A stretch of DNA of 42,773 nucleotides from a virus, in IMG/VR virus record IMGVR_UViG_3300011253_001100, positions 1-42,773 of that record; one strand, given 5' to 3'. Below, piece by piece: positions 1-42,514 of the stretch. The notes beneath the pieces were generated by a model. The model saw only the letters and a program-made list of their open reading frames with translations. It ran no database searches and had not been told where the DNA came from. Both the position numbers and the translations under genes were made by a program. Each line of letters opens with the position of its first letter. Within the stretch, counting starts at the first letter, position 1.

Positions 1-16
1 CCGGGTCGCCGCCGGG
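1..16. repeat. Terminal 16-base direct repeat, left copy
   Basis: The first 16 bases (CCGGGTCGCCGCCGGG) are identical to bases 42758-42773. This is the overlap expected when a circular or terminally redundant molecule is assembled and opened at an arbitrary point. It is far shorter than the roughly 160-base terminal repeat of T7, so it may be an assembly overlap and not the physical end. Confidence 0.8.
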
Positions 17-90
17 TGGCCGCCGAGCTCGCGCCGGGTGGCCGCCGGGAGCTCGCCGCCGGGTGGCCGCCGGGTGGCCGCCCCTAGCGT
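1..90. repeat. GGGTGGCCGCC / GAGCTC word repeat, left end
   Basis: The stretch is built almost wholly from the words GGGTGGCCGCC, GCCGCC and GAGCTCGC. It joins seamlessly in style to the repeat at 42515-42773 if the ends are joined, so the two are one array in a circular molecule. No reading frame here looks coding. Confidence 0.75.
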
Positions 91-540: not shown

Positions 541-2175
541 ATGACACTCACGACTACCAACATCCCCCCCGCGCAACGGCGCGCCCCGATCACCGACAAC
601 GACACGCTTGTCTCTCACGCCATGCCATCGGTCGAGCTCTTCCCCGAGCTCGCCGAGCCCTCCCCGCTGTTCATCCCGACTCCCCCGGCCGAGCTCCCGG
701 CGTTCGACGAGGACGCCGAGAGGAGCATCGCCGACCTCTCCCCGGCCGCCCTCGCCACCCTCTCCGGGTTCTCGGAGGCCACGGTCTCCCGGGTCCTCGT
801 TCTGTTCCCGGAGCGGCGCGTCCTCCTCGCCGTCGACCCGTGGAACGGGGCCGTCCGCGAGACCGTTCTAGCGGCCACGTCCGACCCGTACCTCGACCTC
901 CGGTGCGCCGTCGCCATCGGCACCGAGCTCGCGCTGGCGACGCTCTCCGCCGACGAATTCGCGCGCTGGACGCGCGGCCGCGTCGGAGCCTCCGAGCGTG
1001 CCTTCCGCGAGTCGTCCATCCCGGCCGTCTTCGACCCGACTCGCCTCGGCCGGGCCGTCTCGGAGCGCCAGTTCCCGCGTGCCCTCCTCCGCGTCGCCGA
1101 GGCCGGGGCCCCGTGCATCACCGCCCCTAGGTCGCTCTCGCACGGCACCGACTCCATCGACCACGACCCCGCCATCGCAGCATTGCGGCACGTCTTCGCG
1201 CACGGCCGGAGCGGCTCGTCCGTGGACCCGGCCGGAGACCTCATCCGCCCCGGCGTCGCCTTCGCCGACGTGGACTCGCGCGTCTGGTCGGTCCGCACCT
1301 TCCCCCTCTGGCCGTTCACGGACGGGCCCCGCACGCTCGCCGACGTGGACGCCCCTTCCCTCCCCGTGAGTCCCCTCGTCGGTGCGACCGTGACTCACGC
1401 CGACGTTGAGGAGCTCCACGAGCACGGCGCGTGCTGGTCGGGCATCGTCGACGCCCTCGAAGCCTTCGGTGCCACGTTCGAGCAACAGACCCCGACGTGC
1501 TGCGAGTGCGGCCAGGAGATCGAGCACGGCGACCCTGGCGACGAGCCTGTCGTCGAGTGCGTCCCGTTCACGCTCGACGCCGAAGACGTGCGGTATCTGT
1601 ACCGGGAAGGCTGGTCGAACGCGGCCCGCGAGATTCTCGACCTCGACGAGAGCGAGACCCCCGAGCGCTGGAGCTACTCCCTCGCCGAGCTCCACGAGCT
1701 CCCGACCTTCCGCGTCTCCTCGTGGATGCTCGACGTGCCGAGGACGCTTCGCCTCCTCGTGGAAGAGGAGGAGCTCGACGAGGACGCGGACGCGGACACT
1801 GTGAACGCCGTGCGCGAGCTCCTCGCTCAGTGCTCCACGAACGGCGTCATCCCGCCGTGCTCCGCCGTGTTCTCCGAGCGCTACGCGCGCTCAGCGATCC
1901 GCTGGTCTCTCCTGGGCGGAAGGTCAAGCTCGTGGGCGCACCGACAGCTTCGTCTCCACGTCGGCGACTCCACGCTGAGCGCGATCGAGCTCGCTAGCTT
2001 CGCGGGCGGCGTGATCCTCCGCGCTCTCGGCGGGAGTCGAGTGACTCTCCGCGGGATGGCGAACGAACGTCTGCCCGTCATCGCTTCCGAGGTGACGACC
2101 GATCACCCGACCTCCATCTGGGCCCGCACCATCGCGGCCACTCCCCTCGGCGCGTATCGCATCCCGAACGCGTAG
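541..2175 (+). CDS. Hypothetical protein, 544 aa, beside the terminal repeat
   Basis: I do not recognise this protein. It is acidic, rich in Glu-Leu and Ala, with no signal peptide or membrane segment. A cysteine cluster (TCCECGQEIEHG near residue 320, a further Cys about 12 residues on) could bind a metal. The ATG at 541 has no Shine-Dalgarno site; an alternative in-frame start is the Met at 625, which begins MPSVELFPE. Coding is supported by the long uninterrupted frame and G/C-ending codons. Many Glu-Leu pairs are written GAG CTC, the same hexamer that dominates the neighbouring non-coding repeats, so gene and repeat share a compositional bias. It sits first in the rightward left arm; in T7-like phages this position often carries host-takeover or anti-defence genes, but that is only positional inference. 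Confidence 0.7.
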   Translation: MTLTTTNIPPAQRRAPITDNDTLVSHAMPSVELFPELAEPSPLFIPTPPAELPAFDEDAERSIADLSPAALATLSGFSEATVSRVLVLFPERRVLLAVDPWNGAVRETVLAATSDPYLDLRCAVAIGTELALATLSADEFARWTRGRVGASERAFRESSIPAVFDPTRLGRAVSERQFPRALLRVAEAGAPCITAPRSLSHGTDSIDHDPAIAALRHVFAHGRSGSSVDPAGDLIRPGVAFADVDSRVWSVRTFPLWPFTDGPRTLADVDAPSLPVSPLVGATVTHADVEELHEHGACWSGIVDALEAFGATFEQQTPTCCECGQEIEHGDPGDEPVVECVPFTLDAEDVRYLYREGWSNAAREILDLDESETPERWSYSLAELHELPTFRVSSWMLDVPRTLRLLVEEEELDEDADADTVNAVRELLAQCSTNGVIPPCSAVFSERYARSAIRWSLLGGRSSSWAHRQLRLHVGDSTLSAIELASFAGGVILRALGGSRVTLRGMANERLPVIASEVTTDHPTSIWARTIAATPLGAYRIPNA

Positions 2176-2267
2176 GCCAGTCCACGCCGAGGGGGGCGCG
2201 TTGCCCTCCTCGGCATTCCACCTCCCGGCCGCGATGACGCGGCCACCCGAACCACGAGAACCTAGCC

Positions 2268-2822
2268 ATGCAGAACTACATCGACCTTGCCCCCAACACC
2301 TCCGCCATCACGACCCCGGCCGCACGTCTCACGGCGGCCCTCCACGAGCTCCGCGCTGGCGGCCCCGGCCGCGAGCTCCGCGAGCTCACTCCCCGCGCCG
2401 CCGTCATTCTCGACGAGGCCGCCGAGGCCCTCTCGGCCGCGACGCTCCTCGCCGACTCGACGGCGCGCGCTCTCCTGGCCAAGCTCGTCACGAGCGCGGC
2501 CGCTGACGGCCAGGACGCGGAGCGCTCCGAGCTCCTCCTTTGGGCCGCCGAGCTCCTCGTCGAGTTCACGGGCGAGGAGACCCCTTCCGGCCTCGCGCCG
2601 TTCGCCGAGCTCGCCGCGCTCCTCGCTCTCCATGCCCAGGTCGGGCGCGAAGACGCCGAGGAGTTCGGGACCCCGCTCGACGGGGACGCCCAGGTTCCGG
2701 AAGGGACGAGCCTCCTCCTCGCCGGGTGCATCACCAGGATCGACCCGTTCCTGACGCAGCTGTCCCGGCCCCTCGCGGACGCCCTCGCGTTCGCCGTGCA
2801 ATCTCAGGTCGCCGGGCGCTAG
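2268..2822 (+). CDS. Hypothetical alpha-helical protein, 184 aa
   Basis: Not recognised. The sequence is almost entirely helix-forming (long runs of Ala, Leu, Glu), with no Cys cluster, signal peptide or clear membrane span. It starts at ATG 2268 after a 92-base gap from the preceding gene; no ribosome site is evident. GAG CTC codon pairs are again frequent, as in the upstream gene and the repeat that begins just after its stop. It may form a two-gene unit with the 544-residue protein. Coding is likely but less certain than for genes with family matches, because open frames are common at this base composition. Confidence 0.6.
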   Translation: MQNYIDLAPNTSAITTPAARLTAALHELRAGGPGRELRELTPRAAVILDEAAEALSAATLLADSTARALLAKLVTSAAADGQDAERSELLLWAAELLVEFTGEETPSGLAPFAELAALLALHAQVGREDAEEFGTPLDGDAQVPEGTSLLLAGCITRIDPFLTQLSRPLADALAFAVQSQVAGR

Positions 2823-2910
2823 GCCGCCGACCTTCGCCGGGGGGCCGTTCTCCCCGGTGCTCTCTCGGAGCCCCTCGACGCCGCGCGCGCCGGGGGGCTC
2901 CTCTCGTTCA

Positions 2911-3740
2911 CGAGCTCCGCGAGCTCGACCTGGCCGCCGAAGAGCTCGTCCGCGAGCACGGCCGCGACGCCGACGAGCTCCTCGACCCGGCTCGACGAGC
3001 TCGACGAGCTCCCGGCCGCGAGCTCCGCGAGCCCCTCGCCGCGACGAGCTCCGCGAGCTCGACCCCCGGCCGAGCCCCTCGCCGCGACGAGCTCGACCCG
3101 GCCACGAGCTCCGCCACGAGCGCGGCCGCGACGAGGACGACGCTCTCCGGCCGCCCGGTACTCAAGTACCCGGAGAGCGGCTCCTGGGCCCTCCTGGCGG
3201 CCCCCCTCGCGGCCTGGTCGCGGCCTGGTCGCGCCCCTGGGCCCTCGCCGCGAGCTCGACCTGGCCGCCGACGAGCTCCGCGAGCTCGACCTGGCCGCGA
3301 GCCCCTCGCCGCGCCGGGTCCGCTCGCCGCTCCACGGCTCGAGGAGGACGAGCGGCTCCTCTCGACGCTCTGTAGGCCCGCTGGAGGCCGTTGGAGCCCT
3401 CGGCCCGACCCAAACCACCTGGGCGGTCCCCGTGGCCTCCTGGCCCCTCTCACGGCCCTTAGAACGGAAGCCCCCCCTGGCGGCCCCTAGAACGGCCCCC
3501 CTGGCGGCCCCTCGGCCCCTCCTGGGCTCCTGGCGGCCTCCTGGCGGCCCCTGGCGGCCCCTCGCCGCGAGCTCCGCGAGCTCGACCTGGCCCCGGCCGC
3601 GAGCTCGACCTGGCCCCGTCCGCGAGCCCCTCGCCGCGAGCTCGCCGGGTGGCCGCCGGGCCCCTCGACCTGGCCGCCGAGCTCGACCTGGCCGGGCCCC
3701 TCGCCGCGAGCTCCGCGAGCCCCTCGCCGCGAGCTCCGCG
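2911..3740. repeat. GAGCTC-dense word repeat
   Basis: I count 21 GAGCTC hexamers in about 830 bases, mostly inside longer words such as GCGAGCTCCGCGAGCTCGAC, GACCTGGCCGCC and GAGCCCCTCGCCGCGA. Between 3474 and 3566 the array changes to tandem CCTGGCGGCCCCT. Units vary in order and spacing, so it is a word mosaic and not a simple tandem repeat. The GAGCTC and GGGTGGCCGCC words also occur at both ends of the window. Confidence 0.8.
3142..3178. other. Two-tier hairpin inside the repeat region
   Basis: The outer arms GCTCTCCG (3142-3149) and CGGAGAGC (3171-3178) enclose inner arms GGTACT (3157-3162) and AGTACC (3165-3170) with a 2-base loop. This is the only local break in the GAGCTC array with A/T-containing symmetric sequence. 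It could be a terminator for the two-gene unit at 541-2822 or a protein-binding site. Confidence 0.5.
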
Positions 3741-3980
3741 ACCTGGGCAAAAACCCGTCCGATCACACTCGCGCGGCGCACAATTTCGACCCCCCCTCCC
3801 CGACCTGGGCGAGCCCTTGGCCGAGGATCATGGCATCCTCCGCCGACCCCCCGTTGTGCCCCCGTTGCGCACCTCGAGGGGCCCAGTTAGGACCCCCCCA
3901 GGGACCCCCAGGGGCAGGGGGGGAGCCGCGGCGGAGACGACCACGATATGCCCCCTCAGGTGCATCACGAAACATTCCCC

Positions 3981-4009
3981 TTGCAGCCAACCTGGCCCCA
4001 ACCTACAAT
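3981..4009 (+). promoter_or_regulatory. Candidate promoter giving a leaderless transcript
   Basis: TACAAT (4004-4009) matches the -10 consensus at five of six positions. A weak -35, TTGCAG (3981-3986), lies 17 bases upstream. Only five bases separate the -10 from the ATG at 4015, so transcription would start at or next to the start codon. Confidence 0.5.
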
Positions 4010-4014
4010 CCACC

Positions 4015-4416
4015 ATGAAGCTCACCATCACCCGCCTGCTCCGCCGCCTCCGGCGCCGACTCGGCATCTACACCGACGCCGAAGTCGAGGACCTCCTCAA
4101 CGACCTCGCAGCCGCCCAGCGCCGACTCAGCGACATCGAGGACGACCTCTCTGTCACCTCGGCCCTCGGAGCCGCCGTCCACGGCCTCTCGATGGACCTC
4201 CGCCAGGACACCAATAGAGTCGTCTCCGACGTCCTCCTGCCGCCCGAGATCGCGCTGAGCGTCTTGAAGGTGGCCGCGAGGGGGCTACGAGGTCCTGTCG
4301 CCTACCACGGCGACTGTGACCTCGTGCTGTTCGGCGCCAACGTGGGCGCCTACGAGCCGCCGCAGTTCTGCGCCGACGATGTCACCCCGATCCTGATCGT
4401 CACCAGACCGCGGTAA
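4015..4416 (+). CDS. Hypothetical protein, 133 aa, basic N-terminus
   Basis: First gene of the tightly packed plus-strand operon. Not recognised. Residues 1-17 are strongly basic (MKLTITRLLRRLRRRLG), followed by an acidic helical stretch, residues 20-45, likely to form a short coiled coil, and a more hydrophobic C-terminal half. The start at 4015 was chosen because the frame upstream runs through repeat sequence and because a good -10 element lies five bases before it. A DNA- or RNA-binding role is possible from the basic N-terminus, but no known fold is visible. Confidence 0.65.
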   Translation: MKLTITRLLRRLRRRLGIYTDAEVEDLLNDLAAAQRRLSDIEDDLSVTSALGAAVHGLSMDLRQDTNRVVSDVLLPPEIALSVLKVAARGLRGPVAYHGDCDLVLFGANVGAYEPPQFCADDVTPILIVTRPR

Positions 4417-4457
4417 GTCCCCGGCAACACCTCACTTCTGTCACCACGAAACCGAGA

Positions 4458-4670
4458 ATGACCGTCTCAACCATCACCGACGCGGACGCCATCAGGGCGT
4501 GCCGCATCCTCGTCGAGTTCGTCGCCATGGGCGCCCTGGAGGTCGACGACGTCCCCGGGTACCCCGAGGTCTACATGATCGCCACCGGGGAGAAGCCCCC
4601 GACCGACCACGCCGCCTTCGTCAAGAGGCTCATCACCTCGCTCTCCTTCCTGACCAGCACCACCGACTGA
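4458..4670 (+). CDS. Hypothetical small acidic protein, 70 aa
   Basis: Not recognised. Begins MTVSTITDADAIRAC and ends three bases before the next start, consistent with translational coupling. It has mixed helix and turn character and no membrane segment or metal motif. Codons end mostly in G or C, as in its neighbours, which supports coding. Confidence 0.6.
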   Translation: MTVSTITDADAIRACRILVEFVAMGALEVDDVPGYPEVYMIATGEKPPTDHAAFVKRLITSLSFLTSTTD

Positions 4671-4673
4671 CCC

Positions 4674-5018
4674 ATGGCCGAGTACCAGAACCCCACCGCT
4701 CGCGTCGCCCGCGAGGTGATGAACGAGCGGAACAACCAGGATGCCCGCTGGGGCGAGCAGAACCACCCCGACCACCACCCCGCCGTGTGCCCCGAAGTCC
4801 CGGCGTGGGCCGTCTACGACCTCCCCTCCGAGCTCGAAGTCAAGGAGACCTGCGAGGAGGACCGCGAGGCCGGTAGCCTGTCGTGGTCGGTCATCCTCCT
4901 CGAAGAGGTCGTGGAGGCCCTCAGCGCGGGGACGGTCGAGGACCGCCGGGCCGAGCTCATCCAGGTGGCCGCGGTCGCGCAGGCTTGGATCGAGTGCATC
5001 GACCGGAGGCAGGCATGA
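4674..5018 (+). CDS. MazG-like (all-alpha NTP pyrophosphohydrolase) candidate
   Basis: The 114-residue protein has the layout of small phage all-alpha NTP pyrophosphohydrolases, which hydrolyse (d)NTPs to (d)NMP and pyrophosphate. Near residues 15-28 is ERNNQDARWGEQNHPD, a lead-in I associate with this family. A metal-binding helix follows, with ILLEEVVEAL near residues 75-84, then RAELIQVAAVAQAW near 93-106, the expected second acidic helix. Neighbours fit a host-takeover or nucleotide-pool operon, and two further nucleotide hydrolases lie on the minus strand at 31394-32520. Family assignment is by motif reading only; a MazG-unrelated four-helix protein cannot be excluded. Confidence 0.6.
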   Translation: MAEYQNPTARVAREVMNERNNQDARWGEQNHPDHHPAVCPEVPAWAVYDLPSELEVKETCEEDREAGSLSWSVILLEEVVEALSAGTVEDRRAELIQVAAVAQAWIECIDRRQA

Positions 5019-5230
5019 ACACCCCCGCGCAGGAGCAGGAAAGGTACGTCAATCAACTGATCCGCCGCGCCAAGGTGGCCGAGGCGAAGCTCGCCAACGA
5101 GCAGTCCGAGCACCAGCTGACGATCGACCAGGTCGACGCTGCGGCCTCCGGGAGGATCAGCTTCGGCAGCAGGCCGGTCGTGGACAAGGTCTGTGCCCTC
5201 TACAAGGCGGCGGAGGCCACCCGTGGCTAG
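5015..5230 (+). CDS. Hypothetical helical protein, 71 aa
   Basis: The ATG at 5015 overlaps the previous stop (ATGA) and is preceded by GGAGG five bases away, so the start is well supported. Residues 5-40 are charged and helical and could form a coiled coil. No known family is recognised. Confidence 0.65.
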   Translation: MNTPAQEQERYVNQLIRRAKVAEAKLANEQSEHQLTIDQVDAAASGRISFGSRPVVDKVCALYKAAEATRG

Positions 5231-5477
5231 GAAACCCAAGTACGTCATCACCGCGGACCGCCACCAGTGGATCGTGAACAGGGTCCGCTTCCGCGGCGAG
5301 AAGTCGGCGGAGCCCGGGTCCGAGTACCTCGACCCGATCGGCTACTGCGCGTCCCTCAGGGACGCCCAGCGGTTCGCCGCGGACACCCTGGCCCGCGAGC
5401 TCTGGCCCGCCGAGGGCGTCCCCCTGGAGGAGGTCTACGACCACCTCGTCGCCGAGCACACGGAGGATCGGTCGTGA
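5223..5477 (+). CDS. Hypothetical protein, 84 aa, GTG start
   Basis: The GTG at 5223 lies inside the end of the preceding gene and has GGAGG six bases upstream. The product begins ARKPKYVITADRHQWIVNRV after the initiator and looks like a small alpha/beta protein. Its function is unknown. The overlaps on both sides (8 and 4 bases) tie it into one translationally coupled operon. Confidence 0.65.
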   Translation: MARKPKYVITADRHQWIVNRVRFRGEKSAEPGSEYLDPIGYCASLRDAQRFAADTLARELWPAEGVPLEEVYDHLVAEHTEDRS

Positions 5478-5749
5478 TCGTCTCCAAGGAAGTCCTGGGC
5501 CTCCGCATCCTCAGGGCACGCCGAGCGATCCAGGCCACCCTGCCGGAGATGGAGGTCTCCGGGGTGTCGAAGTCCTCGGTCTGCCGGGCTGAGAACGGCC
5601 AGGCGTACCCGTCCCTCCCCAACCTCATCCTCATCGCCCGCGCCCTGGAGCTCGACCTGAACGAGCTCCTCGCTGACCCCCGGTGTCGGAACTGCGGCCA
5701 GCTAACAGTCTCCGATCAGAGCTCCTGCGCGGACTGCACCGGCCACTGA
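5474..5749 (+). CDS. XRE-family helix-turn-helix regulator with C-terminal Cys pairs
   Basis: A 91-residue protein starting at GTG 5474 (GTGA overlap, GGAGG upstream). Residues about 7-62 fit the XRE/Cro-type DNA-binding fold: LGLRILRARRAIQATLPEME, then the recognition-helix region GVSKSSVCRAENGQAYPSLP, then LILIARALELDLNELLA. The last 25 residues contain two Cys-x-x-Cys pairs (CRNC and CADC), likely a small zinc ribbon. In a phage with an integrase it is the only visible candidate for a lysogeny repressor or Cro-like switch protein. However, it sits inside an operon and not beside the integrase, so control of the adjacent methyltransferase is an equally good idea. Confidence 0.75.
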   Translation: MIVSKEVLGLRILRARRAIQATLPEMEVSGVSKSSVCRAENGQAYPSLPNLILIARALELDLNELLADPRCRNCGQLTVSDQSSCADCTGH

Positions 5750-6681
5750 TGCATGACCATCTTCATCTCCTCTCCGTGTGCTCTGGGATCGGAGGACTGG
5801 ACCTCGCAGTCTGCCGCGTCCTCGGCGCCCGGCCTGTGGGTTACGTCGAACGGGAAGTGTTTGCCGCGACCGCCCTCATGGAGAGGATGGCGGAACCGCC
5901 CCTGGCGCCCGCACCTGTCTGGGACGATCTGCAATCCTTCCCTGGAGAGCTCTTTCGCGGCCGAGTGGACGTCATCGCTGGGGGCATCCCGTGTCAGCCC
6001 TACTCCTCCGCGGGAACGCGAGGTGGCCGTAGGGACGACCGGGACCTCCTGGACGTCTTCCTCGACACCGTTCGCACGGTGGGACCCCGCATCGTCATCC
6101 TGGAGAACGTGCGCGCCTTCGCCGCGCAGGGCGGCCTCGCGCGCCTGCTCCACGGCCTTGCCTGCCTCGGGTTCGATGCGGAGTGGGCTGCTGTTCGAGC
6201 GTCCGATGCCGGTGCCCCTCACCGACGAGACCGACTCTTCGTTCTGGCCTACGCCGATGGCGAGGGACTGGAAGGTGGACTCCCCGGAGAACTCGCCCGG
6301 CGTGCCGCCGCCGCTGTCGAGGCTGGTGCTCCGATGCCCCGAGCTCTGGCCCACGGTGACCGCGGGGGACTCGAAGGCGTCGGGGAGCCGGACGGCGGCG
6401 GGCTCGAAGGCTCACCCGGGGACGTCCCTGACCGACGCGGTGACCACTGGAGACTCCCGTGGCCGCCGGGACCGGACGGAGACTGGGACGGGGTCCCGGA
6501 CCACCACCGCCCTGCGACTGAACCCGGTGTTCGTGGAATGGCTGATGGGACTCCCTCCCTGGTGGACTATGCTCAGGTCATGCGAGTAGATCGCATCCGA
6601 GCCCTCGGCAACGCCGTCGTCCCCCAGCAGGCGGAGGCAGCGCTGCTGCACCTGATCCGACAGAGCCATGTTGACGCCTGA
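5749..6681 (+). CDS. DNA (cytosine-5) methyltransferase, with possible internal frame switch
   Basis: It should transfer a methyl group from S-adenosylmethionine to C5 of cytosine in DNA, protecting phage DNA or altering host methylation. The start ATG overlaps the XRE stop (TGATG). In the 310-residue frame I see SVCSGIGG (residues 9-16, SAM site), PCQ (81-83, catalytic Cys), ENV (119-121), GAPHRRDRLF (155-164) and, near the end, RALGNAVVPQ (motif X). The segment 6242-6571 is open in two frames. The +1 frame gives FWPTPMARDWK, ELWPTVTAGDSKASGSR and LNPVFVEWLMGLP, typical of phage methylase target-recognition regions, with 98 of 110 third positions G or C. The annotated frame gives 73 of 110 but also carries family-like words (PWPPGP, EPGVRGMADG). 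The real product may therefore combine frames. Confidence 0.85.
   Translation: MHDHLHLLSVCSGIGGLDLAVCRVLGARPVGYVEREVFAATALMERMAEPPLAPAPVWDDLQSFPGELFRGRVDVIAGGIPCQPYSSAGTRGGRRDDRDLLDVFLDTVRTVGPRIVILENVRAFAAQGGLARLLHGLACLGFDAEWAAVRASDAGAPHRRDRLFVLAYADGEGLEGGLPGELARRAAAAVEAGAPMPRALAHGDRGGLEGVGEPDGGGLEGSPGDVPDRRGDHWRLPWPPGPDGDWDGVPDHHRPATEPGVRGMADGTPSLVDYAQVMRVDRIRALGNAVVPQQAEAALLHLIRQSHVDA
6242..6571 (+). other. Alternative-frame target-recognition segment inside the methyltransferase
   Basis: Read in frame +1 relative to the methyltransferase start, these 110 codons contain three methylase words (FWPTPMARDWK, ELWPTVTAGDSKASG, LNPVFVEWLMGLPPWWT) and a high third-position G+C of 89%. The frame is open from 5753 to 6589. 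It lacks the catalytic motifs upstream and motif X downstream, both of which are in the annotated frame. A complete conventional enzyme would therefore need one switch near 6241 and another near 6575. Confidence 0.7.
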
Positions 6682-6880
6682 TCCCTACGACTACAACGTC
6701 GCCTCCTCCCTCGCCGACAAGTCGGAGTGCCGGTGGCCTCAGCCCAACGAAGAGCGCTGGGCGACCGCCCTCCTCGACGGCGGCAGCCGCGCCGCGGTCT
6801 GCATCGGCGGCACCCTTACCTACTCCCAGGCCCGCGACGCTGCGGACGCCTGGAACGAAACCCAAGAGACCGAAGCATGA
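6668..6880 (+). CDS. Hypothetical protein, 70 aa
   Basis: Overlaps the methyltransferase end by 14 bases and the next gene by 4. The sequence MLTPDPYDYNVASSLADKSE is followed by a short tail rich in Trp and Ala. No family is recognised. G/C-ending codons and the precise overlaps support coding. Confidence 0.6.
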   Translation: MLTPDPYDYNVASSLADKSECRWPQPNEERWATALLDGGSRAAVCIGGTLTYSQARDAADAWNETQETEA

Positions 6881-8199
6881 GAATCCCTGGACTGCACATC
6901 TCCCGCCCTGACGAGAAGGGCATCATCCGCTACTCAGCGGCCACCCCGGAAGTCGTCGTGATCGGCGCGATGAACGCCGCGCCCGACGCGGGATTCGTCC
7001 ACACCAGCGGCGTGTCCACCGCTCCGAGCGCAGCGACTGCCGAGATTCACCAGAACGGCCCGTTGCCTGAGACGGACGAGGCCACCAGGGTCTCCCGCCG
7101 GGTGATGCCCGGGATGCCCCGGATGCCCGAGAAGATGGCCACCAGGGGGAACAGGGACTTCCTCTACAGCGGAGGAGTGAAGGCGAACGAGGGCGGCGGG
7201 GCCGGGATCTACCCCAACGTCGGCGCCCTCCTGGGGACCGCGATCGGCCAGGAGGAAGCCCTGCGCTCGGTGGTCGGGTGGGTCAACAGGCTCTCGATCT
7301 TCCGAGACCCGAACAGTGGGCCGTACACGGTCGACCGCTCCAGGAACAACCCCACTCCTGGGTTCGAGGGGTCCTGGCAGAACCTGTTCTCCAAGGACCG
7401 AGGCGTGTACCTGGATCAGCTGGACCACCAGCACCTCAGCCGCGCATCGCTCCCGGCGTACTACCTGGACCACCCGATCGGCTCCTTCCTGCTGAGCTAC
7501 CTCTGCCGCGACGTGGCGGACTCCTGGATTCACGGCGGGGCCGAGCACCAGAGCGGCGACAACGTCGTCTGGTGGACTGTCGACACCTTCCTGGAGAGGG
7601 ACAAGGGCGGTAAGGGCCACCCCGCGACGGGCCGCGAGCTCGCCCACGCGATCTTCACGCTTGCCCGCGGGGTTGACCGCAAGGTGGCCTCGTCGGCCGA
7701 CCTGGGGATGCTCGTCGTCCTGGCCGAGCACCTCTGGGACCACGAGATCGGGACGTGCTTCGTGGTGCGCCCCGAGATGCAGGGGGAGGCGTATCCGGCG
7801 AACGCCTGGACCAACAAGACGGGCCAGTACCCGCACAGCGGGCCCCTCTCGAAGTGGGTCACGACCCGGACGGCGCCGGGGGTCACCCTGGGGTTCGAGA
7901 ACTGGCTGCTCGTGAAGTCCCTCTTCCACGCGGCCTACACCCTGCGGAAGGCCGGGATGCCCGCCTCTGCGGACTCCGCGCTGGAGATGGCCCAGAACGG
8001 CGCGCACCGCCTCTGCGCTGACCCGCGCCACTTCTACTTCGTGGGCCACCCGGACCTGTCCCCCCAGGAGGGACCGAACTGGCACTCGTGGTGCGCCGGT
8101 CAGGAGGGCTTCGAGGAGACGCTGATGGAGCTCGTGACCGGCAACCGCGGCTGGTGGCAGGACACGCCGACGGCGGCGCTGCCGATGTTCTGGGAGTGA
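6877..8199 (+). CDS. Hypothetical protein, 440 aa, last gene of the plus-strand operon
   Basis: Starts at ATG 6877, overlapping the preceding stop (ATGA). Not recognised. The N-terminal third is polar and Gly/Pro-rich with PGMPRMPEKM near residue 75. The rest alternates long helical stretches with loops rich in Trp, His and Gly (for example SFLLSYLCRDVADSWIHGG and GPNWHSWCAGQEGFEETL), a pattern that can occur in helical-toroid proteins, though I cannot show this. There is no signal peptide or membrane segment. It faces the minus-strand late genes tail to tail with only seven bases between stops. Because the late cluster ends there, it could be a host-interaction or virion-associated enzyme; that is positional inference only. 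Confidence 0.75.
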   Translation: MRIPGLHISRPDEKGIIRYSAATPEVVVIGAMNAAPDAGFVHTSGVSTAPSAATAEIHQNGPLPETDEATRVSRRVMPGMPRMPEKMATRGNRDFLYSGGVKANEGGGAGIYPNVGALLGTAIGQEEALRSVVGWVNRLSIFRDPNSGPYTVDRSRNNPTPGFEGSWQNLFSKDRGVYLDQLDHQHLSRASLPAYYLDHPIGSFLLSYLCRDVADSWIHGGAEHQSGDNVVWWTVDTFLERDKGGKGHPATGRELAHAIFTLARGVDRKVASSADLGMLVVLAEHLWDHEIGTCFVVRPEMQGEAYPANAWTNKTGQYPHSGPLSKWVTTRTAPGVTLGFENWLLVKSLFHAAYTLRKAGMPASADSALEMAQNGAHRLCADPRHFYFVGHPDLSPQEGPNWHSWCAGQEGFEETLMELVTGNRGWWQDTPTAALPMFWE

Positions 8200-9480: not shown

Positions 9481-9870
9481 TCAGACGATCTCGTAGACGA
9501 CGAGGAACTCGCCGCCGGTCGCGGTGACGTCCATTCGGAAGCCCTCGGGGACTCGGATGCCCTGGGGGCCGAACTGAATCCCGGGCGCCGGGCCGTTCGA
9601 CATCGAGGGGTCGATGGTGAGGATGTGCTGCCCGGTGTGCGTCTGGAGGTCCATGCTCCCGCCGGTCGCGGTGCCGAAGTAGATGGCGTGGATGATCGCT
9701 TCCCGGGTACCGTTGGACGGGTCGAAGGGGGAGCTCGTCGCGGTACCGGTGGTGCCTCCGCCCGCGGCGGTGTAGGCGGCGTCGGGGTCCGGGTAGAGGA
9801 TGGTGACGGCGCCGCCAGCGTTGGACATCCAGTAGTGGCCCAGGCGGTTCTTCGTGTAGCGTTCAGTCAT
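9481..9870 (-). CDS. Virion-type protein, first of three tandem paralogues, 129 aa
   Basis: The ATG at 9870 overlaps the terminase stop by four bases. It shares REAIIHAIYFG, FGPQGIRVPEGF and the ending VVYEIV with the two following genes. It carries Gly/Thr-rich loops near residues 35-50. Being directly coupled to the large terminase gene, it should be made late in infection. Function is inferred only as structural. Confidence 0.65.
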   Translation of the reverse strand: MTERYTKNRLGHYWMSNAGGAVTILYPDPDAAYTAAGGGTTGTATSSPFDPSNGTREAIIHAIYFGTATGGSMDLQTHTGQHILTIDPSMSNGPAPGIQFGPQGIRVPEGFRMDVTATGGEFLVVYEIV

Positions 9871-11576
9871 CGGAGTCGGTTGGTGTCGAGGGAGTTGTGC
9901 ATCCAGTTAGAAGGGCTGGGCGCGGGGTCATTCCAGTTGCGGACGATCTCGTCCATCTCGTCGTCGTAGAGCTTCTTGATGTGCTCGTCGGCGGTGCGCG
10001 CCATGGCCTGGGCCCAGTGGCCCGCAGCCATCGACACGGCTTCGAGGACGTCGTCGTGCTTCAGGCAGCCCCGCTCGCGCGTGGCCCTGCTCATCTGGTA
10101 GGCCAGGCGGTGCTGCATGGCCTTCTCCTCCGGCACCCCGGCCATGGGGGCCGCGTCGCGCCGGAGGGCGTTCGTGTCGATGACCAGGCGGTGCTGGTTC
10201 ATCAGGGGTTCGAGCGTGTCGCAGATGCGCCGCTCCTTCTGGCCGGAGCTCCGCTCGCTCTCGATCACGCAGCGGTGGCCGACGGCCGTCAGGTGGGGCT
10301 TCAGGAGCTCCTCGAACATCCCGTCGCCGAAGTTCGACTCGACCTGGATGACGTTCACCTTCCACTGTTTCGCGGACTCAGCGAGGCCCCGCAGGGTGGC
10401 GTCGTCGAAGCCCTCCTTGTAGCCCCCGAAGTCGACGATGAAGACCGTCCCGTGGAGGACCTTGGAGATCGCCCAGCCGGTCAGGTCGGCGCCGCGGCCC
10501 GAGGGGTCGATCGCCATGACGGAGCCGGTGTAGGGCTCCAGCTGGCTGAGCTCGGCGCTCGGCAGCGGGCGGTTGAAGCGGTCGCCCTGGAGGCCCCAGA
10601 CGGGGATGTCCTCGACGGGGTGGGCGCTGTTCCAGACCAGCTTCTTCGGGGCGAGGTCGACGTCCAGGTCGTGGACGATCAGGTCGGACAGGCGGAGCGG
10701 GCGGGCCTCGCGGTCGCTGAGGGTGGTGTCCAGCTGGTACTGCATGGCGAACGCCGTGCGGCCCTTCTCGACCTCCTTGCGGTCCAGCGAGTCCTGGTCG
10801 TAGCGGTCCGGGTCGGTCGGCTTCCCGACGAGCTCGGGCGTCCAGGCTTCCCTGATGACGGGCGCCAGGCGGTCCCCGAGGAGCTCCAGGCGGTCCTCGT
10901 CAGGATAGCGGGCAGGGTAGATCCTGATGGCGTACCCCTGCTCCGCGAGCTTGAGGTACATCGACTCCTCGAAGTGGGGCGTCCCGAGGATCGTGATGTC
11001 GCCACCCTCCGGGGGGAGGAGATCGACCATGCCGTTCACGCGGAACAGGAGCTTCTCGCGCATCCCCACGGTGCCCGCGGTGTTCGGCACCTCGACGTCA
11101 TCGAGCACGATGTCGTGCGCTCGGGAGCCCACGGTCTGCCCGAAGATGCCCGCGGACTTCACCGAGGGGTCCTTCGTGGCCGCCTTGGGGCCGACGTCGA
11201 ACTTCGCGAGGGAGCTCAGGTCGCCGTTGCCGGGGAGCAGGCAGCGGTAGAAGGGGACCTCGCGCATGAGGCGCTGCATGAACAGCGTCAGCGTGTCGGC
11301 GAAGTCCTTGCCAGCGGAGAGGACGAGGGACGAGAGCGCGTCGACGCCCTTGTCCTCGACCTCCAGGCGGTGGCGGTGTACGGTCCGGAGGCAGGTGATG
11401 TAGGACTTCGCCAGCCCCCGGTAGCCCAGGACGATCTTGCGATCGCCCGGGCCTTGGAGGAAGTCACAGACGTCGTACTGCAACGCCGTCGGCGAGGGGA
11501 GCCCCAGGACCTTCCAGGTGGCGAACGCCGCGTTGCGGAGGTCGCGCAGCTGCGGGTCGAGGGGCGGGATCTGCAC
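9867..11576 (-). CDS. Terminase large subunit (T7 gp19-like)
   Basis: The ATPase-nuclease motor that packages DNA into proheads. With the preferred GTG start at 11576 (TAGTG overlap with the upstream stop) it is 569 residues; a GTG at 11627 would give 586, equal to T7 gp19. Near residue 51 is GYRGLAKSY, matching the T7-type Walker A FRGIGKS with Ala in place of the second Gly. Near 155-163 is DIVLDDVEV, the Walker B region. The C-terminal nuclease shows VMAIDPSGRGADLTGW, IQVESNFGDGMFEELL and KHDDVLEAVSMA, supplying the acidic metal ligands. It follows the small terminase with one gene between them, as in many T7-like genomes. Confidence 0.93.
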   Translation of the reverse strand: MQIPPLDPQLRDLRNAAFATWKVLGLPSPTALQYDVCDFLQGPGDRKIVLGYRGLAKSYITCLRTVHRHRLEVEDKGVDALSSLVLSAGKDFADTLTLFMQRLMREVPFYRCLLPGNGDLSSLAKFDVGPKAATKDPSVKSAGIFGQTVGSRAHDIVLDDVEVPNTAGTVGMREKLLFRVNGMVDLLPPEGGDITILGTPHFEESMYLKLAEQGYAIRIYPARYPDEDRLELLGDRLAPVIREAWTPELVGKPTDPDRYDQDSLDRKEVEKGRTAFAMQYQLDTTLSDREARPLRLSDLIVHDLDVDLAPKKLVWNSAHPVEDIPVWGLQGDRFNRPLPSAELSQLEPYTGSVMAIDPSGRGADLTGWAISKVLHGTVFIVDFGGYKEGFDDATLRGLAESAKQWKVNVIQVESNFGDGMFEELLKPHLTAVGHRCVIESERSSGQKERRICDTLEPLMNQHRLVIDTNALRRDAAPMAGVPEEKAMQHRLAYQMSRATRERGCLKHDDVLEAVSMAAGHWAQAMARTADEHIKKLYDDEMDEIVRNWNDPAPSPSNWMHNSLDTNRLR

Positions 11577-12127
11577 TACGCCACTCGCTCGAAGCGGACG
11601 CGCGAGATGCCGGGCACGTTGGCGCACGTCTGGCTGGCGGACCCGAGAGCCATCACCGGGTAGACGCGCTTCGTCGCGGTGAGGCTCACCTCCAGCGAGG
11701 TGACCGGGCAGATGCAGGCGTTCTGCACGGCGGCCGCGCGGGCCGTCGAGTTGCCGCTCGTGTAGAAGACGTTGTCGTCCTCGTCCACGATGCCGTACTT
11801 CACGTTCGCCGACAGCGAGGCGTGGGTGTTCTGGAGGCAGAGCTCCATGGTCACCTTGTAGTCACCCGGCTCCAGGACGACCGAGTCGATCGAGCCGTCG
11901 TCGCTCACCGAGATCCAGTCAGCCCCGGCGGCCGACTTGGTGAGGGTCGAGACCTCCATGCGGGAGGCGGCCTTCACCTCCCACAGCGGGGTGGCGTCGG
12001 TGTCGTTGGGGATCGTGGTGGTGCTGACGTTGACCCACGCCTTCTCGGCGAGGGCGTCGGCGGTCTCACGGGAGCGCGTGGCGGCGATCGTGTTGCGCGT
12101 GGCGGCGCGGGTTCTTCGGGTGCTCAT
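11576..12127 (-). CDS. Hypothetical virion-type protein, 183 aa
   Basis: Lies between small and large terminase. The first 25 residues are basic and Ser/Thr/Arg-rich (MSTRRTRAATRNTIAATRSR). The remainder is Thr/Val/Ser-rich and beta-like, with VVLEPGDYKVTMELCLQNT near the middle and a Cys pair (CIC) further on. This resembles phage surface or tail-associated beta proteins in composition, but I recognise no family. It is expressed with the late genes. Confidence 0.6.
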   Translation of the reverse strand: MSTRRTRAATRNTIAATRSRETADALAEKAWVNVSTTTIPNDTDATPLWEVKAASRMEVSTLTKSAAGADWISVSDDGSIDSVVLEPGDYKVTMELCLQNTHASLSANVKYGIVDEDDNVFYTSGNSTARAAAVQNACICPVTSLEVSLTATKRVYPVMALGSASQTCANVPGISRVRFERVA

Positions 12128-38222: not shown

Positions 38223-40559
38223 TCAGTTGAAGAAGTGCTTGGATTCGAGAACAAGGGAGGGATCGAGATCGCCCTGCTCCGGCGGAGGAGGGAGCTCGGT
38301 GCCAGAGAATAGACTAACCTCCTGGCGGAAGTCTTCAAGGAGGTTCCCAGAGAACATCTCAGAAAAGACCTGGCGCAGGACCTGGCCACCCCGGACAGCG
38401 TCCCCGGCGGCGAAGCCGTAGGAGTCGTGGATCATGGCGAAGTCGTTGATCCCCTCGTCGACCGCGCGGCAGACGGTGAGCATCAGGGCCGCGGAGTCGA
38501 GCGAGTGGATGAAGTTCGGGGGCAGCCCGTCCAGCTGCTGGCGCCGACAGGTCAGCCCCAGGTCCTCCCGGTAGCGGACGTGCTTCACGGAGTCCGCGAC
38601 GACGGCCTTCACCTGCTTCCGGGTGTCCTTGGGGTAGTCCTGGGCGGTCGGGAACCCGGACGGCGAGGTCCAGCGCACGGCCCCGGCGCGGTCGGCGACA
38701 TCCCGGAGCCAGTCCATGCAGCCGTTGGCCACCTGGATCGTGGCCTGCACCTCGGCCCAGACGAGCTCGGCGAGGTAGATGCAGGGGGCGTAGCTGTCCT
38801 TCCCCCACGGGAACTGGGCGACCTCCTCCTGGTAGGCGAGGAGCCAGTGGCGCAGGTACTTGACCGCGGTGTGCTTCCGGATGCCGTAGGGGGCGGCCAT
38901 CACGAGGCGCTTCACCGCGTCCCGCGGGAGACCCTTCGGCAGCAGCGCGCGCCACTTGCGGGGGACGTCGTCCGGGTCGGCCAGGACCTTCGCCCAGGCG
39001 GCATCGGCGATCCGCTGGTAGATGTCCTGCTTCTCGCCGGGGGTGACGTTGGTCATCGCGGCGAGCTCGGAGTCCCGCAGGAGGAGGGCGTACAGCTGGA
39101 GCCCGTTGTTCGACCCGTCGGCGTGGACCACCGTGCGGATCGGGTGACCCTCGTCGTCGAGCCACGCCCCATGGTCGAGCGCCCAGCCGAGGAACTGCCA
39201 CGGCTTCTTCGCCCGGCCCCACGCGAGGCAGGCCAGCGGGTCCTCGAAGGTGGCCTCCACGAGGCCCTCGGGGATCGTGTCGCCGAAGAGGTCCTCGCCG
39301 TACTCGACCCACCGCTCGGCCTCCGGGGACCCGCGCTCGACGCGCGAGCTCCGGTCGAAGGACATCAGGCCCCGCGCGAAGTCAGGACCCTGGTGGTTCA
39401 GCCAGTGGGGGGTCGGGTAGACCCGCCCGCGGAAGTCGAGGAAGTGGGGGTAGTAGATGGTCTTCCCGAGGAAGCGCTGCGCGAGTCCGATCGTGCGGGT
39501 GTGGCGCAGGCGCGACGAGCCCTCGTCGTCGAACTTCTCCAGGGCCGCAGCCTTGCTCTGCTTCCACTGGCGGAGCTCGGGGGTGTCATCGGCGGGCCGC
39601 TCGGGGAACTCGGGGGCGTCGCGGTCGGGGAGCCCAGCGACCTGGGCGTTGCCGTCCCAGAGCTCGCGGGCCACCTCGTAGACCGTCGGGTTCACGCGCC
39701 ACGGCACCGCCTGGAGGGCGTTGACCGCGCGGTAGACGTCCGGCATCTCGGCGTGTTGGAGCATCTCGACGTGGCCCTTCCGCTGCACCCTGCACAGGGG
39801 CTTGCGGCGCGCGAGGTCGGAGCGGTAGCCGCCCGGCTGGTCGGGGCCCCAGTCGGCGGGCTCCTGGATCATCGGGAGGTAGACCGGGGAGAGCATCTCG
39901 TTCGCGTCGTGGCAGCGACCGATCCACTTCATCGTCTCCTCGGTGAGGAGGATGAACATCACCGTCCGCTTCCCGTTCACCCCGCTCTCGACGCGGAACA
40001 TCCCGGCGTGCTCCAGGCAGAGCTCGGTCAGCACGAGCGCAGCCTGCACCTGGTCGGGCCGCGGGGGACGCTTGTAGTCCCACAGTCCTCGCTTCGCCCA
40101 CCGCCCGGCCACCCTGGACCGCTGGTAGTTCGGCACCTTGTTGGTGTTGAGGCGCTCGAACAGCGGGTGGTGATCCTTGCGGAGGGAGGACAGGATGAGC
40201 TCGTCGGCGAGCATGGTGGCGACCTTGTTGATCGTGCTCGCCCGCTGGAGCCCCATCGCGGCGCAGTCGACGATCGTCTGCATCGCCACCGCGCAGGCGG
40301 AGTAGGGGTCGAGCTCCTCAAGGATACGCAGCGCCTGCGCGCGGGGCCCCGGCTTCTCGGCGGCCGCCTTCATCCACGCGATGACCTCGGGGGCCGTCCT
40401 CTCCACCGCGCCAGTCACGAGCTTCCGCCCAGGGGTGGTCACGGTGAACCGCCCCATGGACAGAGCTCGGTCGTTCGTCGAGCGGTAGCGTTCGAGCCCC
40501 AGGTCGGCCATCTCGCGTTCGAGGGCCAGCTGGTCGGCGCTGATGGAAAGTCCGGTCAC
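38223..40559 (-). CDS. Phage single-subunit RNA polymerase (T7 gp1-like)
   Basis: About 778 residues against 883 in T7; it transcribes the middle and late genes. The GTG at 40559 is preferred because it overlaps the upstream stop (GTGA); a GTG at 40595 would add 12 residues. Catalytic landmarks: HADGSNNGLQLY near 480 (T7 Asp537), KRLVMAAPYGI near 552 (T7 Lys631, Tyr639), MIHDSYGF near 700 (T7 Asp812). The T7 text DGSCSG is DGSNNG here. The C-terminus ends HFFN, not FAFA. The N-terminal domain is shortened, so promoter recognition is likely diverged. Codons near 38300-38320 are unusually A/T-rich. Confidence 0.95.
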   Translation of the reverse strand: MTGLSISADQLALEREMADLGLERYRSTNDRALSMGRFTVTTPGRKLVTGAVERTAPEVIAWMKAAAEKPGPRAQALRILEELDPYSACAVAMQTIVDCAAMGLQRASTINKVATMLADELILSSLRKDHHPLFERLNTNKVPNYQRSRVAGRWAKRGLWDYKRPPRPDQVQAALVLTELCLEHAGMFRVESGVNGKRTVMFILLTEETMKWIGRCHDANEMLSPVYLPMIQEPADWGPDQPGGYRSDLARRKPLCRVQRKGHVEMLQHAEMPDVYRAVNALQAVPWRVNPTVYEVARELWDGNAQVAGLPDRDAPEFPERPADDTPELRQWKQSKAAALEKFDDEGSSRLRHTRTIGLAQRFLGKTIYYPHFLDFRGRVYPTPHWLNHQGPDFARGLMSFDRSSRVERGSPEAERWVEYGEDLFGDTIPEGLVEATFEDPLACLAWGRAKKPWQFLGWALDHGAWLDDEGHPIRTVVHADGSNNGLQLYALLLRDSELAAMTNVTPGEKQDIYQRIADAAWAKVLADPDDVPRKWRALLPKGLPRDAVKRLVMAAPYGIRKHTAVKYLRHWLLAYQEEVAQFPWGKDSYAPCIYLAELVWAEVQATIQVANGCMDWLRDVADRAGAVRWTSPSGFPTAQDYPKDTRKQVKAVVADSVKHVRYREDLGLTCRRQQLDGLPPNFIHSLDSAALMLTVCRAVDEGINDFAMIHDSYGFAAGDAVRGGQVLRQVFSEMFSGNLLEDFRQEVSLFSGTELPPPPEQGDLDPSLVLESKHFFN

Positions 40560-40672
40560 AGGTTGGTCGGGGGCCAGGGGAGGAGGTAGACGCACCAGGC
40601 GAACGCCCAGGTGAACGCGACGAACCCGAAGACGATCAGGAGCGCCAGGACAGGAGCCTTGAGCTCCCTCAC
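40556..40672 (-). CDS. Small membrane protein, 38 aa (short ORF)
   Basis: GTG at 40672 overlaps the preceding stop (GTGA), and its own stop overlaps the RNA polymerase start. The product RELKAPVLALLIVFGFVAFT then WAFAWCVYLLPWPPTNL is one long hydrophobic helix of about 28 residues. Precise four-base overlaps on both sides make translation likely. Role unknown. Confidence 0.6.
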   Translation of the reverse strand: MRELKAPVLALLIVFGFVAFTWAFAWCVYLLPWPPTNL

Positions 40673-40899: not shown

Positions 40900-41112
40900 T
40901 CAGAAGGGGGTGGGCATATCGAAGTCCTGGCCCTCGCTGCGGACCTGGACGGAGTAGGTGGTGACGCCCGACGTGCGGTGGTCGACCACCAGGCGGAGAT
41001 AGGAGATGTCCTCGACCTGTTCGAGGGCTCGGTCCAGGAGGCGGTCGACTGCCTCGGCGTGATCCATGGCCGCCCTCGTGGCGGCCTTGGGGACGGAAGA
41101 GTCATCAGGCAT
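40900..41112 (-). CDS. Hypothetical protein, 70 aa
   Basis: MPDDSSVPKAATRAAMDHAE, then a helical acidic segment and a short beta-like end (VTTYSVQVRSEGQDFDMPTP). Overlaps the integrase end by eight bases. No family recognised. In lambdoid phages a gene abutting the integrase can be an excisionase, but this acidic protein lacks a recognisable winged helix. Confidence 0.58.
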   Translation of the reverse strand: MPDDSSVPKAATRAAMDHAEAVDRLLDRALEQVEDISYLRLVVDHRTSGVTTYSVQVRSEGQDFDMPTPF

Positions 41113-41944
41113 CCATGGCCTCCTTCAGGCTGGCGGTGCTGGGGTGGATGTAGCGCAGGGTCGTGGAGGTCGAGGTGTGGCGGGCCAGGGCCGAGAGCGT
41201 CGGAAGGTCGATGCCCTTCGCCGCCCACCTCGTGATCGCGGTGTGCCGTAGGCCATGCAGGGTGATCGGGGCCACCCCTGCTTGGGCGACCACCCGGTTC
41301 CAGTGGCGGGAGACCGACCTGATCGAGGGCAGCTGGAGAGCCTCGGAGATCGTGAGCCCAGCGTGCATCGTGACCCACTCCGAGAACCGCTCAGGGTGAC
41401 CCGCCAGGTCGAACCGCAGGTTCCGGCTGATCGGGATGAGGGCCTGCTCCCCGTTCTTCGAGTCTTCGAGGTAGAGCTCCCCGTCCTCGGTGATGAGAGC
41501 CTCCCAGCATTCCGCCAGGCGCATCCCGGTCTCCACGAGGACAGCCATCAGCAGGTCCAGGGCGTACCCATCCGGCCCCTGCTCAGCGATGGCCTCGTCC
41601 AGCCTCACCTGCTCCTCGCTGGAGAGCACCCGGTCCCTCGGCCTCCCCTCGGGCGCCAGCGGGGGCAGGACCCCCATGGCCCCGCAGGCCCCATCGAGCA
41701 GCGCAGCCCTCAGCAGGGAGGACAGGGAGCTCCGGTACCGGTTGTAGGTCGACCCCTTCCCGAGCTCCTCCAGCGCAGCCTTCGCTGCCAGGGGACTGTA
41801 CTCGGCCAGGGTGGGGTCGTAGACAGCCAGGAGCCTCTGGGCCCTGGCCACGGTCCGCTCCTCGTCCTTCGAGCCAGCCCAGAGATGCTCCTGGGCGAGG
41901 GGGAGGAAGGAGGAGAGCCGGGGGGAGGTGATCGGGGTAGGCAT
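41105..41944 (-). CDS. int: Tyrosine-type integrase
   Basis: 279 residues. All active-site positions are present: R142 (ETGMRLAE), K163 (EDSKNGEQ), H230 and R233 (LHGLRHTAITRW), H256 (LARHTSTS) and nucleophile Y265 (LRYIHP). The N-terminal 100 residues form a SAM-like core-binding domain (YNRYRSSLSSLLRAALLDG). It lacks an obvious large arm-binding domain. It should insert the phage genome at a host attB, giving a T7-like phage with lysogenic capacity. The attachment site is expected next to it in 41945-42160. A promoter lies so close to the ATG that the mRNA may be leaderless. Confidence 0.93.
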   Translation of the reverse strand: MPTPITSPRLSSFLPLAQEHLWAGSKDEERTVARAQRLLAVYDPTLAEYSPLAAKAALEELGKGSTYNRYRSSLSSLLRAALLDGACGAMGVLPPLAPEGRPRDRVLSSEEQVRLDEAIAEQGPDGYALDLLMAVLVETGMRLAECWEALITEDGELYLEDSKNGEQALIPISRNLRFDLAGHPERFSEWVTMHAGLTISEALQLPSIRSVSRHWNRVVAQAGVAPITLHGLRHTAITRWAAKGIDLPTLSALARHTSTSTTLRYIHPSTASLKEAMDA

Positions 41945-41950
41945 ACCGGC

Positions 41951-41979
41951 ATCCTAGACGCTGTCCAAAGGAGACTCAA
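41951..41979 (-). promoter_or_regulatory. Integrase promoter candidate, leaderless
   Basis: On the minus strand, TTGAGT (41979-41974) and TAGGAT (41956-41951) are separated by exactly 17 bases; each matches consensus at four of six positions. Six bases lie between the -10 and the integrase ATG at 41944, so the transcript would begin at the start codon. No ribosome site is present, which agrees. Confidence 0.5.
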
Positions 41980-42010
41980 GGGTGGACCAGAGGTTTTCTC
42001 TCCGATGGCC

Positions 42011-42035
42011 TCTAGGTTCACCTGAGGGACCTAGA
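42011..42035. other. Inverted repeat, candidate integrase core or operator site
   Basis: TCTAGGT (42011-42017) and ACCTAGA (42029-42035) are exact inverted arms around an 11-base centre, TCACCTGAGGG. Arm and spacer sizes are compatible with a tyrosine recombinase core or a repressor operator. It lies about 70 bases from the integrase start. Confidence 0.4.
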
Positions 42036-42263
42036 TAGGCTCAGTAGTACCACCTGGTGAAACCACTGTACGATCCCCCCCACGTCTCTCCTAGCAACAC
42101 TCCTCAGAGAAGACTCAGCAGTAGACCTAGTGTCTCTCTTGAAGCTATCTTCACGGCTTGGGATGGTGCCCATAGAAGGGAGGACCTGGTCGGGCTCGTC
42201 CTTGGCAGCCCCCCCTGGCGGCCCCCTCCGCAGCCCTCCCTCGGGGGCCCAGCAGGGCTTGTC

Positions 42264-42280
42264 GCCCACCACAGGTGGGC
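42264..42280. other. Perfect 7-bp hairpin
   Basis: GCCCACC (42264-42270) and GGTGGGC (42274-42280) with loop ACA. Isolated from any gene, so it may be a protein site or part of a larger folded leader that runs toward the repeat. Confidence 0.45.
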
Positions 42281-42422
42281 CTGAGGGTAGCCTTAGAGCC
42301 ACGGGGGAAACCCCACCGGGTGGTCTTCCCCCGCAGGGGGGTCCCCTCCCACGGAGGAAAGAACCTAGCCGCGCGGCCGCCCGCGCGCGCTCGAGGTGCG
42401 CCCGCGCGCGCGACGCAAGGGC

Positions 42423-42494
42423 CGTGCCAGGCCGCGTTGGCACGCCCCTTGCAGGGGCCCCTTGCAAGCCCCGTGCCGCGCCGACCCGGCACGG
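42423..42494. other. Series of three hairpins
   Basis: Three successive inverted repeats: CGTGCCA/TGGCACG (42423-42444), CTTGCA/TGCAAG around GGGGCCCC (42448-42468), and CCGTGCC/GGCACGG (42471-42494). The first and third share the CGTGCC word. The cluster directly precedes the GAGCTC repeat, a place where a packaging or replication signal could lie. Confidence 0.55.
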
Positions 42495-42514
42495 CCGTTG
42501 CAGGGGCCCCTCGC

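Follow-up and report, generated by a model that had tools for sequence, protein, structure and literature searches.

Among the closest described counterparts of the arrays reported here are the terminal short repeats of phage T7, built of CCTAAAG words and known as SRL and SRR. For the T7-like Yersinia fPS phages, excerpts of a published description place 11-34 repeats in the interval from the left terminal repeat to the first phage promoter, with repeats on the right side also (PMC5923468). Excerpts of a second source describe concatemers as being cleaved where the repeat ends on the right, the way in which the left repeat is completed as not fully understood, and T7-like genome ends as liable to vanish in assembly, which tends to circularise terminal repeats (PMC3350473). 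Here, we analyzed a window of 42,773 bp (69% GC), the whole of one IMG/VR record, and found two non-coding arrays of repeated words that are, in our judgment, reasonably likely to be short repeats of the T7 type, unusually large, at the flanks of the concatemer junction, like those that T7-like phages carry beside direct terminal repeats.

Two non-coding word arrays in a T7-like phage with an integrase

Judged from its predicted genes, the record is a T7-like phage with an integrase: next to a T7-type RNA polymerase and terminase, profile searches found a portal/head-tail connector (PF12236), a Gp10A-like capsid protein (PF21703) and a tail tube protein (PF17212), and a T7-type helicase-primase, a family A DNA polymerase and a Gp2.5-like protein are also encoded. 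The T7-like core genes lie on the minus strand, and a second gene block at 541-8199, on the plus strand, comprises orphan genes together with genes for an XRE regulator and a C5 methyltransferase. The arrays and the genes that matter for their interpretation are as follows.

1-82, plus strand: continuation of array 2 at the left end of the contig (word positions).
83-540, no strand assigned: non-coding gap with further CCTGGCGG words at 113 and 244 (word positions).
541-2175, plus strand: 544-aa orphan gene between the arrays, with no PHROGs, Pfam or NCBIfam family.
2268-2822, plus strand: 184-aa orphan gene between the arrays, with no PHROGs or NCBIfam family.
2911-3741, plus strand: array 1, a non-coding mosaic of GAGCTCCGCGAG, CGACCTGGCC, GAGCCCCTCGCCGC and CCTGGCGGCC words with 21 GAGCTC (word counts).
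3474-3566, plus strand: near-tandem CCTGGCGGCC stretch in array 1, five copies (word positions).
5683-6681, plus strand: predicted C5-cytosine DNA methyltransferase (PF00145, E 5e-23; phrog_363).
9867-11627, minus strand: terminase large subunit (TerL), T7 type (NF033889, E 4.6e-152; PF22530).
38223-40595, minus strand: single-subunit T7-type RNA polymerase (PF00940, E 7.4e-59; tblastn to T7-like phages).
41105-41944, minus strand: tyrosine integrase (PF00589, E 2.1e-16; phrog_1, E 2.8e-28).
41945-42510, no strand assigned: non-coding gap upstream of the integrase gene, with one CCTGGCGGCC at 42214 (word positions).
42511-42773, minus strand: array 2 at the right end of the contig, made of GAGCTC and GGGTGGCCGCC words (blastn, word positions).

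In Pfam, the 184-aa orphan gave just a Talin_VBS2 match under the cut-off (E 0.03), and it was without a match in the phage collection. A further orphan, of 440 aa at 6877-8199, had no family over the cut-off in PHROGs, Pfam or NCBIfam, and for neither this protein nor the 544-aa one did we find an IMG/VR relative. The methyltransferase matched TIGR00675 (NCBIfam) below the cut-off; the integrase, the methyltransferase and the 440-aa protein had no close match when compared with plasmids and phages. A T-loop pattern scan recognised no tRNA-like attP, and host searches with TerL, which had no positive control, returned 0 of 396 Acidobacteriota and 0 of 396 Actinomycetota genomes.

A preliminary description of this DNA had singled out an 830-bp, GAGCTC-dense mosaic inside a 1.2-kb gene-free region, and both elements were borne out. 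We counted exactly 21 GAGCTC copies at 2911-3740 (25.3/kb) against 92 in the genome body at 4000-42400 (2.4/kb), so that the hexamer is not evenly dense within the genome, and the recurring words that had been named there are present by word count. Within 2911-3740 only, GACCTGGCCGCC and GCGAGCCCCTCGCCGCGA occur three times each and CCTGGCGGCCCCT four times. The surrounding gap, between a gene end at 2822 and an ATG at 4015, measures 1,192 bp (76.5% GC), and no frame in it is consistently gene-like, the weakly best frame shifting along its length. The GAGCTC positions of the arrays occupy all three phases at irregular spacings of 9-287 bp, the words are short and imperfect, and the in-frame fraction of repeats in array windows is 0.13-0.38; array 1 lacks the single frame with the genome's coding signature that would mark low-complexity protein-coding DNA.

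The roughly tenfold excess over the genome body is real, but array 1 is not its sole site. Array 2, of about 345 bp, is denser still, with 14 GAGCTC in 274 bp (42500-42773; 51/kb). It occupies the gap that precedes the integrase and RNA polymerase genes, upstream of the early module, and array 1 lies 2.8 kb from it on the terminase side, with two genes in between. The two arrays have a common vocabulary: blastn aligns them at 70% over about 250 bp, mainly on opposite strands, with GAGCTCCGCGAG inverted between them, and they also have one 23-mer in common on the same strand. Both carry GGGTGGCCGCC on the plus strand (nine of its ten copies at the contig ends, one in array 1).

We found that GAGCTC is not what sets the arrays apart. 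Across the window it occurs 147 times, far above 100 dinucleotide shuffles (mean 35, maximum 54); a Markov model of order four, with the array itself as training sequence, however, expects 21.0 copies where 21 are seen. Since the hexamer is no more frequent than the array's own 5-mers and 4-mers predict, the repeated units must be longer words. All ten genome copies of CCTGGCGGCC and all ten of GGGTGGCCGCC fall in non-coding gaps, and it is these gap-confined words, rather than the hexamer emphasized at first, that characterize the arrays. This bears on the reading that GAGCTC serves as a palindromic binding or modification site, whether bound by the XRE protein as an operator or decoy or modified by the C5 methyltransferase. 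The hexamer is indeed a palindrome, the phage encodes both proteins, and AGCT in the arrays is GAGCTC in 37 of 37 cases; yet AGCT occurs there solely as GAGCTC inside longer words, the hexamer shows no enrichment past those words and is common in coding DNA, and the methyltransferase matched no assigned specificity. A restriction or methylation array would have a hexamer enriched beyond its context and a matching enzyme; with no such enrichment and no specificity assigned to the enzyme, we consider such a site very improbable, and GAGCTC itself is probably not the active site.

A replication origin or a structured non-coding RNA has equally little probability in our estimate. The folding of 2905-3745 as RNA was stronger than in 20 of 20 dinucleotide shuffles (z -6.2), and the GC skew, negative across ~0-7 kb, is positive for the most part from 8 to 42 kb, as such an explanation might have it; self-complementary GAGCTC words inflate the folding, though, and the skew tracks the two gene blocks, which run in opposite directions. 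An Rfam scan gave 0 matches to known structured RNAs, and no second record was found for covariation. Array 1 also holds a perfect 10-bp inverted repeat (CGCTCTCCGG/CCGGAGAGCG, 3141-3179, with GGTACT/AGTACC inside), which we rejected as a special structure because 21 of 200 shuffles fold equally well. Scans of 2800-4500 for sigma-70 promoters and terminators found nothing, and no phage-RNA-polymerase promoter family was recognised among the direct repeats.

Repeat clusters at the ends of T7-like genomes

Whole genomes were searched for windows dense in repeated words, leaving out those in which most spacings are multiples of three. Such clusters sit at the ends in roughly half, or more, of the named relatives examined: of 13 linear T7-like records with names, 6 (k=7), 7 (k=8) and 9 (k=9) had their strongest out-of-frame window no more than 400 bp from a record end, against a chance expectation of 0.26-0.27. 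The misses at k=8 (6 of 13) were ProddE, RHEph01, phiKMV (500 bp from the end), LUZ100, P-SSP7 and BB8; some named records, RHEph01 for example, may start elsewhere than at their physical ends. The top window was the CCTAAAG array at the left end in T7, bases 1-400 in Mycobacterium phage jiawei, and a stretch adjoining the annotated terminal repeat (45424-45682) in Caulobacter phage S2B. In circularised records, it lay 110 bp (RHph_I20) or 1.2 kb (Limnohabitans phage YIMV22061) past the end of the TerL match, and TRX32-1 had no cluster at the junction and a duplication elsewhere. The IMG/VR relative G002 has a cluster in its non-coding late-to-early gap; G001 and G004, examined whole, have none at the junction. 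It is this end placement in T7-like relatives that leads us to read the present arrays as T7-type end repeats.

At 56 TerL loci, qualifying windows amounted to 40 of 3465 downstream of TerL versus 27 of 5438 upstream, a count that, like the repeat-excess scan, rests on shuffles that are approximate first-order resamples and in which some downstream windows look coding by eye (e.g., L012 near 12.6 kb). Repeats that follow TerL in L031 and L057, and others near 15.4 kb of L028, looked coding by eye and were set aside. In L060, about five near-identical units of ~33-36 bp with AAGCTTCCTGGGGTTGTCAAG lie at 5490-5650, ~1.2 kb downstream of TerL. Separately, G001 (L072 at its start, L074 at its end) has a 51-bp direct repeat with a tRNA 3' end at its bounds, beside an integrase, and looks like an integrated prophage with attachment sites.

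The likeness to the T7 short repeats extends to several properties: a T7-like genome, non-coding position, imperfect and irregularly spaced out-of-frame words, and the rank of strongest repeat cluster in the genome. The present arrays are, in contrast, larger and denser, with longer, GC-rich words, and they are partly inverted (the left and right words of T7 are on the same strand), 2.8 kb apart and without a mapped terminal repeat. Jiawei, S2B and YIMV22061 are T7-like and have GC-rich word mosaics at an end or downstream of TerL, and the first two also have an integrase; their arrays are shorter, their words differ, and GAGCTC is not among the words listed for them. The repeat excess is 0.75 and 0.56 in the arrays here compared to 0.08-0.27 in most relatives' end windows (0.40 in YIMV22061), and repeats are here two to several times as dense as in most relatives. 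The Yersinia fPS phages resemble the present phage in having variable-number repeats by terminal repeats; these phages, unlike the present one, are lytic and about 45% GC (PMC5923468).

End words vary from phage to phage: CCTAAAG in T7, CCTTAGT in SP6, CCTTAGG in Lo5R7ANS, CCTTGAG in L016, CCTAAGG in L058, and, correspondingly, CCTGGTGG in YIMV22061 and CCTGGCGG in the present phage. The YIMV22061 words CCTGGTGG and GCCCTAGCG resemble CCTGGCGG, the former closely. A CCT-N-purine core ranks 2nd among 128 patterns on the terminase sense strand and 5th on either strand; it is a lead only, because it was noticed post hoc, shows no enrichment in Pasto and hardly any in G002, and in the present phage falls on the antisense strand. 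Literature searches found no paper on CCTAAAG with phage and terminal repeat, nor on SRL/SRR.

The array words themselves were found in no other IMG/VR record in the scans made. The array 23-mer had 0 IMG/VR matches and 3 in genome contigs, none inside a comparable array, and blastn of the array in six relatives gave just matches of 25-37 query bases, in 3 of the 6. Two pattern searches yielded candidates that we rejected: a GAGCTC-cluster pattern had one match, unrelated and coding, and a triple CCTGGCGGCC pattern had 16 records, 15 of them open in at least one frame over ±150 bp and none with a mosaic. That no other record in these scans carries the array would also fit neutral low-complexity DNA, in which codon-like words of a GC-rich genome were expanded by slippage or recombination and serve no function. 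The array words follow the genome's codon-pair preference, GAGCTC CGC GAG CTC reads Glu-Leu-Arg-Glu-Leu, and the 12-mer GAGCTCCGCGAG has one extra copy in the upstream gene, at 2373, where blastn finds 94% identity between array and gene. We regard this explanation as unlikely: CCTGGCGGCC and GGGTGGCCGCC are restricted to non-coding gaps and are not gene copies, and relatives with unrelated words and GC contents have end clusters as well.

Both contig ends lie inside array 2, and the first and last 16 bases, the only ones that the ends have in common, are identical, as when an assembler stops in a repeat. An assembly artefact, be it a false path through low-complexity k-mers or a wrong array length, is nonetheless very unlikely in our estimate, in that the longest exact repeats (30 bp in array 1, 32 bp in array 2) are short for read-length paths and arrays of the same style occur in the finished genomes of T7, S2B and jiawei.

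We infer from these comparisons that the present arrays are of the same kind as T7-like end repeats, and we infer their role likewise. Array 2, which occupies the same position as arrays in several relatives, would flank the concatemer junction; the arrays would mark this junction for the T7-type terminase and may also mark it for the replication that duplicates the terminal repeat, possibly acting via redundant weak binding sites or hairpin-prone single strands. Among the functions first guessed for the mosaic, packaging is the one that gained support, from the habit of T7-like phages of placing word-mosaic repeats beside their genome ends. Several observations weigh against reading the arrays as end repeats: the contig ends share 16 bases and have no mapped terminal repeat; array 1 is 2.8 kb off, behind two genes and largely inverted relative to array 2; depending on word length, between 4 and 7 of the 13 named records depart from the pattern, as do G001, G004 and TRX32-1; repeats are much denser here than in most relatives; and the words of relatives differ, with the array words found in no other IMG/VR record scanned. 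Read as end repeats, the arrays are a known kind of feature in unusual, oversized form.

Genome-wide loss of GAGCTG/CAGCTC

The excess of GAGCTC throughout the window is largely the flip side of a near-total loss of GAGCTG/CAGCTC, and this loss underlies a bias in Glu-Leu and Gln-Leu codon pairs. Glu-Leu is written GAGCTC in 76 of 81 pairs versus 45 expected from codon usage; following GAG, leucine is CTC in 75 cases and CTG in 0, and following CAG, CTG in 26 cases and CTC in 1. Because coding preferences raise GAGCTC genome-wide, the proper contrast for the arrays is array against body. GAGCTG/CAGCTC has 1 copy in the window (at 23710) against 64 expected from a Markov model. When synonymous codons were shuffled in 24 of the 25 window genes (all but TerL), it had 1 copy against 43.5 expected and was the most depleted among hexamers with at least 8 expected, and GAGCTC was the most enriched (80 versus 48.0). 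The window is also depleted of GCCGGC (0 versus 35.5), CTCGAG (6 versus 46.1), AGGCCT (0 versus 15.6) and GGATCC (0 versus 11.4 expected).

By the same synonymous shuffle, the relative G004 has 0 GAGCTG/CAGCTC against 27.6 expected, and it also has the CTCGAG loss; G001, at 70% GC, has 45 against 38.8, and neither it nor G002 is depleted. We surveyed the observed-to-expected ratio in 48 of 57 records, nine with fewer than 5 expected GAGCTG having been dropped, and found it below 0.15 in 8 (the window, L023, L026, L027, L028, L031, L057 and L062) and at least 0.53 in the other 40. Of the eight, L023 also lacks GAGCTC and CAGCTG, so that its loss is not specific, and L026, L027 and L028 look like one virus lineage and are therefore not independent. 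Besides the window, the high-GC T7-like relatives with near-elimination of the word are G004, L026, L027, L028, L031 and L057. A mirror pattern was seen in jiawei (L105), with 0 GAGCTC, 0 CAGCTG and 101 GAGCTG/CAGCTC, and in S2B (L106), with 0, 24 and 104, respectively.

A tentative explanation, which we rate just short of likely, is that the GAGCTC excess reflects strong selection against asymmetric GAGCTG/CAGCTC, on both strands, in a high-GC T7-like group, most simply by a host defence directed at single asymmetric 6-bp sites; GAGCTC would then be the permitted word from which the end arrays were built. Under the end-repeat reading, the hexamer is a component of the array words and probably not the signal itself, its abundance raised by the avoidance. 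Excerpts of a phage survey report that Type I and IIG sites are not avoided, that Type III sites are avoided very rarely, and that site elimination is weaker in temperate phages (PMC6286503). Measured against the pattern in those excerpts, an asymmetric site lost almost entirely from a phage that has an integrase would therefore be a new case, if the selection reading is true. A literature search on CAGCTC or GAGCTG as a recognition site found nothing relevant.

Consequences for T7-like phages

If dense out-of-frame mosaics mark junctions family-wide, the junctions of T7-like genomes could be located from sequence alone, and the role of end repeats would be open to comparative testing. The avoided hexamer is the most interesting by-product of the analysis and the part of the results most worth pursuing: the loss of GAGCTG/CAGCTC provides a concrete target word for seeking an unrecognised host defence.
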